Part shown: in pieces, positions 8,927 through 28,169 of the stretch | Layout of the letters: each line of letters begins with the position of its first letter | Numbering within the stretch: the stretch's first letter is position 1 | Origin: an uncultured Bacteroidia bacterium | GTDB taxonomy: Bacteria; Bacteroidota; Bacteroidia; Bacteroidales; UBA932 | Direction of reading: 5' to 3' | Assembly (NCBI GenBank): GCA_902785065.1 | Contig: CACZXH010000017.1 | Coordinates: 1 to 40,396 of the forward strand | DNA length: 40,396 nt | The notes under the pieces: generated by a model | What the model was told of the DNA's origin: nothing | Databases searched by the model: none | What the model saw: only the letters and a program-made list of their open reading frames with translations | Translations under genes and position numbers: made by a program

Positions 8927-11287
8927 ATGAAACGGATTTATTCATTTTTGGTTTGCCTGATCGGCCTGACAATGAACGCTTTTGCGGCCCGGCAGGGTGA
9001 AACGGTGCTGCGCGGGAGCGCGATCGAAGAGAGCGGCGCGCCCGCCGGCTTCGCCACCGCCTTCCTGACCAACGCGGAGGGTACGCTGGTCTGCGGCACC
9101 ACGGCCGGCGAAGACGGCCGCTTCGAGCTCAAGGCCCCGCAAGGCACTTATACCCTCACCGTCTCCCTGGTCGGTTTCAAGGACGCCTCGCAGCAGGTCA
9201 CGCTGAACCAGGCCCAGCAGGAGCTCCCCCCTATCCGCCTGGAAGAGGACAAGCAGCTGCTCGGCGAGGCCGTCGTGCAGGCCGTGATGCCCAAGACCAA
9301 ACTCACCGGCGAAGGCCTCGCCACCTCCGTGCACGGTTCCGTGCTGGAGAACGCGGGCACCGCGCGCGACGTCCTGGGCAAGGTTCCGGGCCTCATCAAG
9401 GGCCGGGACGGATTCGAAGTCATCGGCAAGGGCGCGCCCCAGGTCTATATCAACGGTCGGAGAATGACCGACGCCACCGAGCTGGACCGCATCCTGAGCC
9501 ACGAGATCCAGAGCGTTGAGGTCATCAACAACCCCGGCGCCCAATATGACGCGACCGTGCGCGCCGTCGTGCGCATCCGCACCATCAAGCGGAAGGGCGA
9601 AGGCTTCGGCTTCAATGTGAACCTGGTCGACGAGCAATCACTCCGAGTCAAGAAGTTCAACGACCCGGACGCTGCGGTCAATGTCAATTACCGCACCGGC
9701 GGCGTGGACGTATTCGGCGGCGTGAACTACAGCCAGTTCAACCAGCGCCAGAACAGCGACCTCGTGCAGGAAACGATCCTGAATCCGGTCATCAAGCAGG
9801 TCGAAAACCTGACCGCCGACTTCAGCAACCAATCGCTGATTGCCAACGGGGGCGTCAACTGGCAGATTGCCAACAACCACTCCGCCGGCTTCAAGGTGGA
9901 ATGGGGACGGAACCTCGGTTACAATGACTATGAACTGATGGAAGGGGACATCTTCCGCGGAAACGAACTTATGGACCACCTGAAGACCGTCAACCGTGGA
10001 CAGAACGGGGCGAAAGCGCCCCAGTCGCTGGGCGCCAATGCCTACTACAACGGCCTTGCGGGGAAGATGGGCATCGACCTGAACCTGGACTATTACCAAG
10101 TCTCCGACAACAAGATCTCCAACATCCAGGAGGACAGCGACATCCAGGATGCGACGGTGTCCACGGAATCCGGCTCCGACAGCAAGCTGTACGCCGCCAA
10201 GCTGGTGCTTTCCTACCCCATTGGGCGGGGCCAGCTGCAGGTGGGCACGGAAGAGACCTTCTCCCGCACCCGCGACAATTACCGGCTGACCGGGGCCGAT
10301 ATCCCCTCGACCTCCACCCGCGTGAAGGAAGACAACATCGCAGCTTTTGCGAATTACGGTTTCGTCGTCGGCCAGATCGGCCAGCTGAGCGCCGGCCTCC
10401 GCTATGAGCACGTGAACTATGCCTATGAGGACCTGATGGGCGATGGCAGCTTCTCCCGGAAATACGACAACCTCTTCCCTTCGGTCTCTTTCGCCGGCGT
10501 CCTCGGCCCGGTGCAGACGATGCTCAGCTACAGCGCCCGCACGGCCCGTCCCGGCTTCAGCATGCTGTCCACGGCCATCCGCTATAACAACCGGTACACC
10601 CTGCAGGGCGGCAACGCGACCCTCCAGCCGCAGGCCATCCAGTCCCTGTCCGCCACGGCCCTCTGGAACTTCCTCACCCTGGCCGTCAGCTACGACCGCG
10701 TCAAGGATCCCATCATCACCTGGGCGGACCTGTACAACGAGGAAGGCGTCATCCTGCTTAAGCCGCTCAACGGGGAGAATCCGCTCCGGTCGCTGTCGGC
10801 CTTCCTGGTGGCCACCCCGACCATCGGCCCCTGGAACATCAGCGCCACCACCGGCTTCCAGAAGACCTGGCTCAAAATGGGAGATGTCTACTTCAACGAC
10901 GCGCCCATCTGGATTGCCCGGCTGAACAACACGTTCACTCTCCCGAAGGGCTGGCAGCTGGAACTGGGCGGCGAATACCACAGCCCGGGCCAGCAGCAGA
11001 ACATGACGCTGACCAACCACTACTTCGACCTGACGGCGGCGGTGCAGAAGACCCTGCTGAAGGACGGTTCCCTGGTGCTCCGCCTGGAAGGCCGCGACCT
11101 CACCTACACGGGCCACAACCACATCTTCGGCAACCAAGGGCACTACAACATCACGCAGAGCGTCCTGATGGACACGCAGCGCCTCGTGTTCTCCATCCGC
11201 TACCGCTTCAACACGACGGAGAGCAAGTACAAGGGAACAGGCGCCGGCAAGGACGCCCGCAGCAGAATGGGCAGCAGTTCCAATTAA
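8927..11287 (+). CDS. TonB-dependent receptor-like outer-membrane beta-barrel protein
   Basis: A 786-residue exported protein. The signal peptide covers residues 1 to about 21 (ending MNAFA). A CarboxypepD_reg-like domain spans about 25-110 ('GSAIEESGAPAGFATAFL', 'YTLTVSLVGFKD'). A plug-like segment covers about 115-225 ('GTARDVLGKVPGLIKG', 'QSVEVINNPGAQYDA'), then a barrel of the OMP_b-brl_3 type runs to the C-terminus, which ends with a barrel strand 'RLVFSIRYRFN' and a polar tail. No SusD partner is adjacent, so it is not an obvious polysaccharide utilisation system. Substrate is unknown. It has its own promoter. Its stop shares bases with the convergent dapF stop (TTAA). Confidence 0.85.
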   Translation: MKRIYSFLVCLIGLTMNAFAARQGETVLRGSAIEESGAPAGFATAFLTNAEGTLVCGTTAGEDGRFELKAPQGTYTLTVSLVGFKDASQQVTLNQAQQELPPIRLEEDKQLLGEAVVQAVMPKTKLTGEGLATSVHGSVLENAGTARDVLGKVPGLIKGRDGFEVIGKGAPQVYINGRRMTDATELDRILSHEIQSVEVINNPGAQYDATVRAVVRIRTIKRKGEGFGFNVNLVDEQSLRVKKFNDPDAAVNVNYRTGGVDVFGGVNYSQFNQRQNSDLVQETILNPVIKQVENLTADFSNQSLIANGGVNWQIANNHSAGFKVEWGRNLGYNDYELMEGDIFRGNELMDHLKTVNRGQNGAKAPQSLGANAYYNGLAGKMGIDLNLDYYQVSDNKISNIQEDSDIQDATVSTESGSDSKLYAAKLVLSYPIGRGQLQVGTEETFSRTRDNYRLTGADIPSTSTRVKEDNIAAFANYGFVVGQIGQLSAGLRYEHVNYAYEDLMGDGSFSRKYDNLFPSVSFAGVLGPVQTMLSYSARTARPGFSMLSTAIRYNNRYTLQGGNATLQPQAIQSLSATALWNFLTLAVSYDRVKDPIITWADLYNEEGVILLKPLNGENPLRSLSAFLVATPTIGPWNISATTGFQKTWLKMGDVYFNDAPIWIARLNNTFTLPKGWQLELGGEYHSPGQQQNMTLTNHYFDLTAAVQKTLLKDGSLVLRLEGRDLTYTGHNHIFGNQGHYNITQSVLMDTQRLVFSIRYRFNTTESKYKGTGAGKDARSRMGSSSN

Positions 11288-12153
11288 CGGATTTCCACCA
11301 GCCGGGCAGGCCCGGTCAGATATACGTCGGTGAACTTTTCGTCCGCTCCGGGCGTGAAGTTCACCGACAGCCAGTCTTGCCGGGCGCGGAGGCGGTACGC
11401 GCCGGGCGTGGCCGTAGGCACGCCGGCGTGATGCGCCACGAGGGCGGAGGCGGTGAGGCCCGTGCCGCAGGCGAGGGTCTCGCCCTCGACGCCCTTTTCG
11501 AAGGTACGGACGTGGAGTCCGTCCGGGGCGACATGGACAAAGTTCACGTTCGTGCCGATGGGCGCGAAGGCCTCGTTCCAGCGGAGCGCCTTGCCTTCCG
11601 CGTCGACATCGACCTGCTCCACATCGTCCACGAACTTCACGAAATGACGGGTACCCGTGTTCAGGAAATACCCGCCCAGCATGGGCGTAATCCCCTGTAC
11701 GTCAATCATTTTGATACGCACAGTCCAGAGTCCGTCCTCCGGTCGCTCCAGAATCTCGCCCGTATGCAGCCCGTCCGGGGCCATGAACAGATAAGATCCT
11801 TCGGCAAGCGCAGGATGACAGGAAGGCTTGATGCCCAGGTAATCGGCAAACGCCACGATGCAGCGCCCGCCGTTCCCGCACATCATCCCGCCGGACCCGT
11901 CGGGGTTGTAGAACTCCATGGTGAAATCGACAGATGGCCGATCGCGGTCGGCCATGAAGGTTGCTGAACCGGTCGAACCATCGTCATGCCCGACCTGATC
12001 GGGCATCCCCAGGATCATCAGTCCGTCGGTCTTGAACTCCTTGCAAAGCGCCTCGATGCGCGGCACCTCACGGAAAGCGGACACATCGCCCTCGCGACCG
12101 TCGATGACCACAAAGTCGTTGCCCGCTCCGGAAAAAAGATAGATAGTCTTCAT
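11284..12153 (-). CDS. dapF: Diaminopimelate epimerase with palindromic-element insertions
   Basis: Converts LL-DAP to meso-DAP, the form used for peptidoglycan and lysine. The 289-residue protein starts at 12153 (MKTIYLFSGAGNDFVVID). The two catalytic Cys are visible: about 92 in MCGNGGRC and about 229 in LACGTGLTASA. It carries two segments that I do not expect in DapF, each encoded by palindromic repeats: residues about 49-74 (11931-12009) and about 112-120 ('CHPALAEGS', 11794-11819). The frame is kept through both. Its ATG overlaps the TGA of the upstream aminotransferase gene (ATGA), so the two were translationally coupled. The apparent continuous fusion with the aminotransferase is due to a frameshift in that gene. 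Confidence 0.9.
   Translation of the reverse strand: MKTIYLFSGAGNDFVVIDGREGDVSAFREVPRIEALCKEFKTDGLMILGMPDQVGHDDGSTGSATFMADRDRPSVDFTMEFYNPDGSGGMMCGNGGRCIVAFADYLGIKPSCHPALAEGSYLFMAPDGLHTGEILERPEDGLWTVRIKMIDVQGITPMLGGYFLNTGTRHFVKFVDDVEQVDVDAEGKALRWNEAFAPIGTNVNFVHVAPDGLHVRTFEKGVEGETLACGTGLTASALVAHHAGVPTATPGAYRLRARQDWLSVNFTPGADEKFTDVYLTGPARLVEIR
11794..11819 (-). repeat. Family A unit inside dapF
   Basis: On the minus strand it opens GTCATCCT and closes AAGGATCT. It is read in the dapF frame as CHPALAEGS and placed just after the conserved CGNGGRC region, where homologues have only a short loop. Confidence 0.7.
11931..12009. repeat. Inverted pair of family A units inside dapF
   Basis: Left unit about 11931-11958: AGAT then GGCCGATC/GGTCGGCC arms, then ATGA. 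Right unit 11983-12009: GTCAT then GCCCGA/TCGGGC arms, then ATC. They are separated by about 24 bases. The pair encodes about 26 residues (including 'ADRDRPS') between LMIL and VDFTMEF of DapF. The same paired layout is seen at 13401-13460 and 21029-21089. Confidence 0.7.
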
Positions 12154-13386
12154 AACCGTCCCTTGATGATTTCGCCCAGCAGTTTCATGCCCGGCTCCAT
12201 CTTTTCCTCCGCGACGAAGGAGAAATTGAGCCGCATGGTGTTGCGGTGGCTGCCGTCCAGGAAGAAGAACGAGCCGGCCACATAGGCACAGGAACAACCC
12301 GCCCTCGGGATAGGTCCATTTCACGCCTTCCGGCATATACTTCTCCAACAGGCTCACCATCAAGTCCCTGCGGCGGCGGTACTCCGCCTTCGTCTTCACA
12401 AGGTTCGCATCCAGCGCGCCGCTCGTGAGGAATTCCGTGGCCATATACTGGTCGAATACCGGCGGACACAGGTCCAGCGCCTGCTTGCAGATGTAAATCT
12501 GCTCCAGCAATTCCTCCGGACCGATAATCCAGCCCAGCCGGAATCCCGGCGCAAAGATCTTCGAGAAACTCCCCAGATGCAGCGTCCGTTCCGGCGCCAG
12601 CGAATAGATCGTCGGCAACTCTTCCCCGCTGTATCTCAGCTCTCGGTATGGACTGTCCTCCACAATCACAATGTCCAGCTCCCGTGCCAACGCCACAATC
12701 TCCTCCCTCTCCTCCAGCGTCATCGTCTCCCCCGAAGGATTATTGAAGTCTGGGATGACATAGATGAATTTAACGCGAGGAGCGGAAGAAGGCACACCCT
12801 CTGAAATCTGTGGCCACCCTCGGCCACACCCCGAAGGGCAAATGTCCCCTGGGGGACCATAGGGGGTAAGACTTCCTCCCGGGAACCGGGAGGGGCCCGC
12901 CGCTTGCGGTGGGAGGGGCCGAAGCGAAGCGAAGGCGGTTTCAGAGGGTGAGCCTTCTTCCGCCCGTTTCCACGATCTCACATCTGCCCGATAGGCCTTG
13001 AACGACTGCAGGGCGCCCAGATAGGTGGGTTCGGTGGTGAGGATGATGTCGCCCGGGTCGCAGAGGATGCGGGTGCAGACGTCGATGCCCTGCTGGGACG
13101 AGGTCGTTATCTGCACCGTCGAGACCGGCACGCCATAGCGGGCGGCAATCGCCTCCCGAAGCTCCGGAACACCCTGGGTAGCCCCATATTGCAGCGACTT
13201 GGTCCCGTACTTGTCCAACACAAGGCCCGGCAGCCGCCGCAGGTCCTCCACCGGGAAGGTCACGGCCGCCGGATACCCGCCCGCGAACGAGCAGATGGCG
13301 CTCAGGTCCACCTTCCGGAAGATTTCCCGGACCGGGCTCCGCATGAAGGAGGGGACGTCGGAGGAGAACAATCTCTGATAGTTCAT
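12150..13386 (-). pseudogene. PLP aminotransferase (candidate N-succinyl-DAP aminotransferase), frameshifted and carrying a large repeat insertion
   Basis: Class I/II fold PLP enzyme resembling the LysN / 2-aminoadipate transaminase group: 'SLQYGATQGVPELREAIA' at about residue 64, 'IPDFNNPSGETM', and the PLP Lys at about 276 in GSFSKIFAPGFRLGW. Coupling to dapF (ATGA overlap at 12150-12153) and the presence of dapD and dapE suggest it makes N-succinyl-LL-DAP from the keto acid; this is inference. Two oddities are present. Residues about 141-202 come from a family C palindromic element (12782-12963) with the frame kept. Near 12287-12292 the frame breaks: 'PEGGLFL' jumps to 'AYVAGSFFFLDGSHRNTMRL' in another frame, with roughly 22 expected residues missing. 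The second frame ends at the TGA that overlaps dapF. Confidence 0.8.
12782..12963. repeat. Family C multi-hairpin element, long variant, inside the aminotransferase gene
   Basis: Arms of 25 bp at 12782-12806 and 12939-12963 are inverted repeats with one mismatch. Inside, on the minus strand, are family C landmarks: GGGCCCCTCCC (12888-12898) and GCCGAGGGTGGC (12813-12824), plus extra small hairpins such as CCCGGTTCCCGGG and CCCCTGGGGG. It replaces native sequence between 'ADVRS' and 'KFIYVIPDF' and is open through the aminotransferase frame. Confidence 0.75.
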
Positions 13387-13400
13387 AATGGTTTTCTGTT

Positions 13401-13460
13401 AGATTCCCGGTCAAGCCGGGAATGACGATCTCGTCATGGCCGACTCCGATCGGCCATCTC
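13401..13460. repeat. Inverted pair of family A units filling the gap between the aminotransferase and murA
   Basis: Left unit 13401-13426: AGAT, TCCCGG/CCGGGA arms, ATGAC. Right unit 13433-13460: GTCAT, GGCCGA/TCGGCC arms, ATCTC. The final base (13460) is also the last base, on the minus strand, of the murA TAG stop codon. The pair occupies almost all of the 73-base gap. Confidence 0.75.
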
Positions 13461-14768: not shown

Positions 14769-15923
14769 TTACACGTGCTCTACTTCGGGGTGGAGTTCTA
14801 TGCCATACTTTTCCCGGATCGTGCCGATGACCCGCCGTTCCAGGGCGACGATCTCCTCCGGAGTGGCGGCCCCGGTCGCATTGACGATTACGAGTGGCTG
14901 CTTCGGATAGACCTGTGCGCCGCCGAGACGCATGCCCTTGAACCCGCACTGGTCGATCATCCAGGCGGCCGGCACCTTCACTTTCTCGCCCACATCGTAG
15001 TGCGGCACCTCATAGTCCGGGCCGTTCTCCGCCTTTGCAATGGACACAATCCGCTCGAAATGCTCCCTGTCGATGACCGGATTGCAGAAGAAGCTCCCCG
15101 CGCTCCCGATCTCCTTCGGGTCCGGCAGCTTCTGCTCCCGGATGCCGATGATGGTATCTCGGATGAATTGAGGCGTTAAGTTTTCATCGGGGATAGAGGG
15201 TATGGGGTCTGAAACCCTCCGGTCGCTTTGCGACCTCCGTCCCTCCCATAAATGGGCCCCTCCCTCTAATAAGCCGAGGGTGGCATAGGTTTCAGACCCC
15301 ATACCCTCTATCCTCCTCTCAATTGCCTTGCGGACGCCGCCGTAGTCCAGCTTGGGCTGGGGGACGGTGGAGAGGCGGAAGGTGACGGCGATGATGATGT
15401 AGCGGCCCTTCCAGTCCGTCTTGAAAAGAGAGGTCCGATAGCCGTAGCCGCAGTCCGCGCTCGGAATGTCCACGAAGCGGCGCTCCTGCCGGTCGAAGGC
15501 ATGGACCGTGTCGATAATATCCTTCGCCTCCACGCCGTACGCGCCGATGTTCTGCACCGCGCTGGCGCCCACTTCGCCGGGGATCAGCGACAGGTTCTCC
15601 GGGCCCCAGAGGCCCTCTGCGGCCGCCCAGGCGCAGAAGTCGTCAAAGACGACGCCTGCGGCGACGCGGACGACGAGATGCCCGGTCGAGCCGGGCATGA
15701 CGGAACGTCCCTGGTTCGCCATGCGCAAGACGGTGCCGGGGAAGTCGCCGGTGAAGAGGAGGTTCGAGCCTCCGCCCATCACGAAGAGGGGCTGCGGAAG
15801 GGCGTTGAAGTCCAGCGTGAGCAGGTCCTCCGGGTCCGTCACCTCCACATACAAACGGCAGGACACCCTCATACCGAAGGTGTTCTGCCGGGAAAGGTCG
15901 TATGCTTCGTGCCTGATAATCAC
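14769..15923 (-). CDS. murB: UDP-N-acetylenolpyruvoylglucosamine reductase with two palindromic insertions
   Basis: Reduces the MurA product to UDP-MurNAc with FAD and NADPH. The start is a GTG at 15923 directly after the aspS TAA. FAD-binding elements are near residues 20-60 and 90-130 ('MGGGSNLLF', 'SLIPGEVGASAVQNIGAYG'), with the C-terminal 'KLPDPKEIGSAGSFFCNPV' containing the catalytic Ser. At 384 residues it is about 45-50 longer than homologues I recall. The excess matches two palindromes: residues about 75-83 ('VMPGSTGHL', family A) and about 204-244 (family C, exactly 123 bp, 41 codons) between 'VRKAIE' and 'LTPQFIRDTI'. The catalytic motifs remain intact, so it is probably functional. 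Confidence 0.92.
   Translation of the reverse strand: MIIRHEAYDLSRQNTFGMRVSCRLYVEVTDPEDLLTLDFNALPQPLFVMGGGSNLLFTGDFPGTVLRMANQGRSVMPGSTGHLVVRVAAGVVFDDFCAWAAAEGLWGPENLSLIPGEVGASAVQNIGAYGVEAKDIIDTVHAFDRQERRFVDIPSADCGYGYRTSLFKTDWKGRYIIIAVTFRLSTVPQPKLDYGGVRKAIERRIEGMGSETYATLGLLEGGAHLWEGRRSQSDRRVSDPIPSIPDENLTPQFIRDTIIGIREQKLPDPKEIGSAGSFFCNPVIDREHFERIVSIAKAENGPDYEVPHYDVGEKVKVPAAWMIDQCGFKGMRLGGAQVYPKQPLVIVNATGAATPEEIVALERRVIGTIREKYGIELHPEVEHV
15191..15313. repeat. Family C multi-hairpin element inside murB
   Basis: Perfect 26 bp inverted-repeat arms at 15191-15216 and 15288-15313 enclose a core with GGTCGC-TTT-GCGACC, CCC-ATAAAT-GGG, GGGCCCCTCCC (15254-15264) and GCCGAGGGTGGC (15273-15284). The core is nearly identical to the copy at 28058-28169, whereas the arms differ. 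Total 123 bp, in frame with murB. Confidence 0.85.
15675..15701. repeat. Family A unit inside murB
   Basis: GAGAT then GCCCGG-TCGAG-CCGGGC then ATGAC, 27 bp with a perfect 6 bp stem. In the murB frame (minus strand) it reads VMPGSTGHL. Confidence 0.75.
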
Positions 15924-28057: not shown

Positions 28058-28169
28058 GGAAGATACCCTCTCAAACCCTCCGGTCGCTGAAGCGACCTCC
28101 GTCCCTCCCATAAATGGGCCCCTCCCTCTGATAAGCCGAGGGTGGCATAGGTTTGAGAGGGTATCTTCC
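28058..28169. repeat. Family C multi-hairpin element, intergenic copy
   Basis: Perfect 20 bp arms at 28058-28077 and 28150-28169, with a looser outer extension (GGACCTTA at 28045-28052 against TAAGGTCC at 28176-28183). The core has GGTCGCT-GA-AGCGACC, CCC-ATAAAT-GGG, GGGCCCCTCCC (28116-28126) and GCCGAGGGTGGC (28135-28146). It fills most of the 162-base gap between the peptidase and mrp. It could also end the peptidase transcript, though no T-run follows. Confidence 0.85.

Follow-up and report, generated by a model that had tools for sequence, protein, structure and literature searches.

The murB gene in a 40,396-nucleotide stretch of an uncultured Bacteroidia bacterium (the window below: contig CACZXH010000017.1, positions 1 to 40,396, assembly GCA_902785065.1; this genome is referred to as G000) raises the question of how a long palindromic element can lie in an open protein gene, and how its arms can differ from those of other copies of the same element and still be matched. 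The gene (14769..15923, minus strand) encodes 384 amino acids, and its product scores 343.3 bits against the NCBIfam model of UDP-N-acetylmuramate dehydrogenase (cut-off 277). The element, here called copy 1, occupies 15191-15313, i.e., 123 nt or 41 codons, and leaves the murB frame uninterrupted. Comparison among genomes indicates a real family, namely a dispersed, structured DNA element of gut Bacteroidales that often lies in frame within genes. The explanation that we favour, with moderate confidence, is that of a selfish structured element whose arms would be rewritten and re-matched in place by fold-back template switching, and which would be tolerated in protein loops.

Copy 1 consists of two 26-nt arms (15191..15216 and 15288..15313), 100% complementary to each other, around a conserved core at 15217..15287 on the minus strand; the strand of the element termed F corresponds here to the window minus strand and to the sense strand of murB. 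Copy 2 (28058..28169, minus strand) is intergenic, with 20-nt arms (28058-28077 and 28150-28169) that are also 100% complementary, and it is not present at the matching site in the relatives G003 and G181. The cores of the two copies are 97% identical over 67 nt (15230-15296 vs. 28092-28158), with a change in a hairpin loop. Thus, the initial annotation, which had described perfect 26 bp arms, a core shared with a second copy and arms that differ between the copies while each pair remains self-complementary, was correct on these points. Copy 3 (12782..12963, plus strand) has 25-nt arms with one mismatch and an enlarged core; it lies inside the open frame 11284-13386 (minus) and on the strand opposite to copies 1 and 2. 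The fold of the element is far more stable than that of shuffled sequences (z = -9.75 on the plus and -9.04 on the minus strand), with 0 of 200 shuffles equally stable on either strand.

The family extends well beyond the window. A covariance model finds 19 matches in G000, including all three window copies, and BLAST of the 136-nt element region against the same genome gives 22 matches at E<=10, some of which are partial, self-complementary or chance matches. By BLAST, the core is present in 17 of 41 genomes, all in the same genus (17/25, vs. 0/16 in other genera). A pattern scan of 84,980 species, each represented by a single genome, returned at least 117 stretches, and all 117 listed records are titled Bacteroidales, Bacteroidia or (once) Candidatus Cryptobacteroides. 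Under strict filters, with which non-detection is weak evidence of absence, the covariance model has matches in 4 genomes, one in each of four genera, among 198 from the order: G000, G576 (17 matches), G524 (5) and G426 (3); no match passed these filters in G245, a member of the same genus as G000. In total, 158 distinct copies from related Bacteroidales were collected, of which 150 armed copies were analysed and 8 weak-armed ones excluded; some records are one assembly under two names, and exact duplicate copies were removed while related ones were kept. Rfam has no match in the window at gathering score. The claim that no such family had been described in Bacteroidales stands in so far as no description was found in searches of open-licence papers, a scope that makes this weak evidence of absence. 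However, palindromic repeats of the REP (repetitive extragenic palindromic) type have been described in Bacteroidetes and within genes in parts of PMC3733652.

On the F strand, the element reads arm-AAACC-TGTGGCC-A-CCCTC-GGCCACA-TAA-GAGGG-AGGGGCCC-hairpin-GGGAGGGG-hairpin-GGTTT-arm, and the core ranges from 46 to 158 nt among copies. The CCCTC loop is complementary to the downstream GAGGG, making an H-type pseudoknot possible. In copy 1, stem 1 lies at 15270..15287 on the minus strand (TAAGCC/GGCATA on plus, TATGCC/GGCTTA on F, with one T.T mismatch) and closes the loop that bears one side of stem 2; the two sides of stem 2 are at 15262..15266 (CCCTC on plus, GAGGG on F) and 15276..15280 (GAGGG on plus, CCCTC on F). 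The two hairpins are at 15221..15235 (GGTCGC TTT GCGACC) and 15245..15256 (CCCA TAAA TGGG), the latter differing in stem and loop among other copies.

Across copies, the covariation of the conserved core is that of two hairpins and an H-type pseudoknot. In stem 1 (140 of the 150 copies, 10 omitted), position 4 is paired in 0.94 of copies vs. 0.49 with shuffled partners, with G-C, T-A and A-T all occurring, and position 6 in 0.70 vs. 0.42; positions 5 and 7 are poorly paired (0.67 and 0.56 vs. 0.49 and 0.48). Stem 2, whose two variable pairs were left free in the search, has complementary sides in 175 of the 177 distinct stretches, with six pair combinations (TC/GA 147, CC/GG 16, GT/AC 7, AT/AT 2, AC/GT 2 and GC/GC 1; 2 non-matching), although 147 of these 175 carry the bases fixed by the pattern that gathered most loci; outside those 147 stretches, 28 of 30 are complementary. 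RNAalifold, which cannot write pseudoknots, draws CCCTC and GAGGG as the two sides of a plain hairpin; the covariation of stem 2 fits both structures equally. The pseudoknot is favoured over the plain hairpin because stem 1 covaries, and it is the likely fold of the core.

The arms behave quite differently from the core sequence. In the 150 armed copies, they measure 14-36 bp (median 27), are perfect in 48 cases and contain 208 mismatches in 3,983 pairs. For the pairing test, 105 of the 150 copies, those with distinct arms, were used (45 were omitted because an inner end differed, an end was short or an arm was repeated). Between 88 and 100% of them are paired at positions 6-24, compared with 40-76% when partners are shuffled, while the mean pairwise identity of these arms is 37% at positions 6-22, i.e., the arms are nearly private to each copy. 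A profile built from 109 of the 150 copies (41 omitted) shows AAACC innermost, pyrimidines at 8-10, a weak TRT near 14-16 and a purine-rich 17-25, with the signal fading out past about 28 and outer ends that vary among copies. These data support the proposal, already made in the initial annotation from the two window copies, that the arms co-vary and that their structure rather than their sequence appears to be conserved; the strand bias described next also agrees with it.

The 208 mismatches, read on the F strand, include 111 G.T and 43 A.C, two kinds of wobble that were scored equally in the mismatch count (p 4e-8, an optimistic value, the copies being related and some assemblies double-named). 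Among copies not called intragenic, the G.T:A.C split is 81:28. This bias suggests that a folded F single strand matters, and we infer a constraint on the F-strand fold, as RNA or as single-stranded DNA. The excess, whose direction is unchanged among copies with F antisense to the gene (15 vs. 7), is also what selection alone would give, i.e., a structured RNA or single-stranded DNA site in which compensatory point mutations are added one at a time, and the strongly conserved core with its covarying stems fits such a site as well. We nevertheless consider selection alone unlikely in view of three observations at shared sites: arms that become very different and still matched at one site, inversion of the core with the arms retained, and outer arms in which host flank is repeated in inverted form, the last two being unexpected from point mutation.

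These observations come from genomes in which the same site is occupied. G003, with about 90% identity to G000 in many flanks, has several element sites in common with it. At C23:12048, the cores of the two genomes are near-identical and the arms differ over their whole length, yet remain matched; C23:10771 and C5:169645 show the same pattern. The site in ribF carries an internal deletion in the G003 element, and other G000 sites are without the element in G003. Site pairs were then defined by matching of both flanks, arms at least 60% alike and a core in the same or the inverted orientation. In the 20 same-orientation pairs, 60 arm columns have changed on both sides and are still Watson-Crick, 20 have passed through wobble and 22 are broken, 5 of the last coming from one indel pair. 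Nine further pairs have the core inverted relative to the flanks. The clearest is L085 (G003) vs. L268 (CAMNGM010000026.1), in which the 5' arms are identical at 22/22 positions, the core identity is 0.99 and an unpaired arm base changes side together with the core; in L009 vs. L147, the core identity is 0.97. At another site, on C12 (L163, L020, L144), the G254 core is opposite in orientation to that of G000, and G356 resembles a deletion remnant.

In addition, comparison with element-less relatives, judged by eye, shows outer arms of which one side is native and the other its inverted copy. Such cases are the YggS-family gene (vs. G164), C6:40848 (vs. G003 and G410), trmB (vs. G003), C28 (vs. 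G003) and murB of L155, where native Leu-Thr-Pro codons lie inside the arm; at C2:23359, the native site was palindromic before any element (G247 and G232), and the remaining sites are not decisive. In the five former cases, the native flank is the F 3' side. This polarity would be explained if the arms were made at insertion, when a folded RNA or single-stranded DNA, once attached to the host sequence, folds back at its end and copies the flank, so that the F 3' arm is native and the 5' arm the copy. However, murB of L050 has the reverse polarity, with the native flank on the 5' side, and a strict rule by which the native flank is always F 3' was abandoned after this case. Moreover, a later process is required in any case to explain why, at shared sites, arms have diverged and cores are inverted, and a search of G000 for RVT_1 found nothing at E 1e-8. 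An origin of the arms at insertion is therefore quite doubtful. A combined version, in which an element with no recognisable transposase moves as one folded strand, the pseudoknot core replicates, the arms are built from the host by snap-back, and fold-back events account for upkeep and flips, is given a rather low probability.

The combination of arm conversion, palindrome growth and spacer inversion is the reported pattern of template switching, and it is on this ground that template switching is proposed here. In yeast genes, it has been described to homogenise arms and invert spacers in coding DNA (parts of PMC8604942), and it creates and maintains perfect stems according to parts of PMC8794818. 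After insertion of the element, the nascent strand would hop to the opposite arm of the hairpin (fold-back template switching) and copy changes from one arm into the other, re-matching them; the same hop would lengthen the palindrome by adding an inverted copy of the native host flank, and would sometimes flip the core. A constraint on the F-strand fold would act besides this process. The sequence comparisons thus point to in-place arm rewriting and core inversion by template switching; they are also compatible with the other suggestion of the initial annotation, movement of the element through a folded intermediate. The template-switch hairpins described so far resemble the present family in that, within coding DNA, their arms are homogenised and their spacers inverted; they represent a mutational process on existing repeats, whereas here the process would accompany the life of one dispersed family. 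Perfect inverted repeats also occur in translated mitochondrial genes of Nematomorpha, with template switching named as a possible cause in part of PMC6649704; there, unlike here, the arms encode conserved native protein and no dispersed element with a common core is involved.

Several observations weigh against this explanation. To the optimistic p value, the reversed polarity of L050 among flanks read by eye, and the dependence of the stem-2 counts on the search pattern is added that the G.T excess is weak in the intragenic copies taken alone (15:7 with F antisense, 8:5 with F sense). Arms are less than 60% alike in 31 same-orientation and 20 inverted site pairs, which are therefore possibly separate hotspot insertions that mimic arm change. 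Three of the nine inverted pairs have a core identity of only 0.52-0.56 and could be independent insertions, so that only some inversions are clean. Arm rewriting is not universal, since the copies in G576 have nearly constant arms; some of the G576 copies lie in composites of two different families (loci L319-L327 and L338), and the constant arms and composites perhaps reflect a younger expansion. A few element matches in G576 are at or near contig ends. Finally, a mobiliser was not found, and filled/empty polymorphism within one species was not seen.

How, then, is the element accommodated in genes such as murB? A codon-usage test with a conservative threshold was applied to 142 of the 150 copies (8 near locus ends were omitted); it called 34 intragenic, whereas for 108 the two sides were not both called coding. 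The element is in frame and stop-free in 29 of the 34 (19 with F antisense and 10 with F sense), and the remaining 5 are, by our reading, at a gene end. These 29 copies should therefore add some 40 residues to the protein as a translated loop. Host genes in G000 include those for MurB, the bifunctional RibF, TrmB, a YggS-family protein and an ABC ATPase, and the same protein loops are hit repeatedly; e.g., flanks like those of the RibF site surround copies in L010, L166, L168, L192, L251 and L277. Tolerance in protein loops is the best explanation of these sequences. Long stems and a pseudoknot within conserved genes could instead indicate that ribosomes skip the folded RNA, or that the RNA is removed, giving a protein without the segment. 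However, skipping would not demand that 29 of 34 be in frame and stop-free, and both orientations are found, so that bypass or splicing is extremely improbable. Palindromic bypassing elements are inserted in protein genes of Magnusiomyces mitochondria (parts of PMC6649704); those inserts stay untranslated and free of frame constraint, whereas the element here keeps the frame.

As a hotspot, the murB loop has received several repeats; in many species, it is short. We read related elements at this loop in L048, L049, L050, L052, L054, L063, L146 and L155, and at the murB site in 7 of the 29 other genomes listed, in agreement with the earlier view that the segment is not an ancestral part of MurB, most related loci lacking it. 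In other species (L055, L145, L151 and L153), the loop is occupied by other repeat families, of the CATTCCGAGC, CATGCCCGACCTGATCGGGCATC and GGACCTGGTCC types. The insert had been described as exactly 41 codons; the length of 123 nt and the open frame are as stated, but the net gain relative to G003, the closest relative without a murB element (flanks 93% and 90% identical), is 108 nt (127 vs. 19), since G003 also has 7-8 nt of each outer arm, as GGATAGA-C-TCTATCC. As an element in G381 has the same outer arm, the G003 site may be a remnant, and its treatment as a plain empty site was dropped. Elsewhere in the window, the open frame that contains copy 3 joins aminotransferase and diaminopimelate epimerase domains, by fusion, frameshift or assembly effect. 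A 26-nt inverted pair, 92% complementary and 1.5 kb apart (11932-11957 and 13434-13459), is perhaps another small dispersed palindrome inside genes.

Mobilisation in trans was considered next to in-place rewriting. An ordinary REP or miniature inverted-repeat transposable element (MITE) could be mobilised by the Y1 transposases of the genus that resemble REP-associated tyrosine transposases (RAYT). Among 25 genomes, 14 have relatives of the G000 RAYT, namely 14 of the 16 in the same genus and none of the 9 others; all 12 BLAST-positive genomes among those 16 have RAYT, and the RAYT-less G002 and G013 are also without an element match. However, no element core lies in the flanks (up to 1.5 kb per side) of the 24 RAYT loci scanned, a part of all RAYT matches listed. 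Likewise, the element-bearing G576, G524 and G426, each listed as 99% complete, have no match to this RAYT (E 0.001) or to Y1_Tnp (E 0.01), the latter negative calling for caution since the Pfam Y1 model is weak on this RAYT family, and G001, G010 and G245 have RAYT but no detected element. The core-free flanks and the element-bearing genomes without a RAYT or Y1 match set back RAYT as the mobiliser, and this route is very unlikely. Reverse transcriptase was also rejected: PF00078 (E 1e-8) is present in 7 of 25 genomes but absent at this threshold from G000, G004, G005, G014 and G015, each with at least 9 element matches. As regards MITEs, the arms are private in the genus of G000 and nearly constant in G576, no autonomous copy was noticed and no clean target duplication was established. 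The RAYT-like Y1 family itself (L107:1006-2106, equal to G000:C15; loci L286-L309) comprises several diverged paralogs per genome, and the G000:C15 gene seems, from translations only, to be bordered by its own hairpin repeat (GGTGACGTCCC..GGGACGTCACC).

Among known repeats, the GTAG/CGTC REPs carry a tetranucleotide at the end of a 20-40 bp stem-loop with G-T pairs in the stem; they sometimes lie within genes, and the CGTC type is reported in Bacteroidetes (parts of PMC3733652). The present element resembles them as a dispersed, sometimes intragenic palindrome with G-T pairs in its stems. However, with its conserved core and private arms it reaches about 100-180 bp; it is not a 20-40 bp stem-loop ending in GTAG or CGTC, and no element core was found in the flanks of the 24 RAYT loci scanned. 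The enterobacterial RU small mobile sequences, repeats of about 100-170 bp that are found intragenically (parts of PMC2759123), are, by description, similar in size and position. Rickettsia palindromic elements (RPE) are small palindromes in frame within open reading frames (parts of PMC3733652 and PMC6649704), and the identity of their repeats decays with time (same parts of PMC6649704). By description, not by comparison with RPE sequence, the element may work like RPE, with in-frame insertion in unrelated protein genes. Unlike in RPE, divergence of the arms here leaves them matched; the core shows pseudoknot covariation and is able to flip.

The element itself is probably selfish. For annotators, the family means that compensatory change in such arms is, alone, no proof of RNA function. 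Template switching has mostly been inferred from single events, and the family supplies many natural replicates of arms being rewritten, palindromes growing and cores flipping within protein genes. With 400 genomes of the genus searchable, the rate and direction of the process, as well as the tolerance of protein loops to such inserts, would become measurable.
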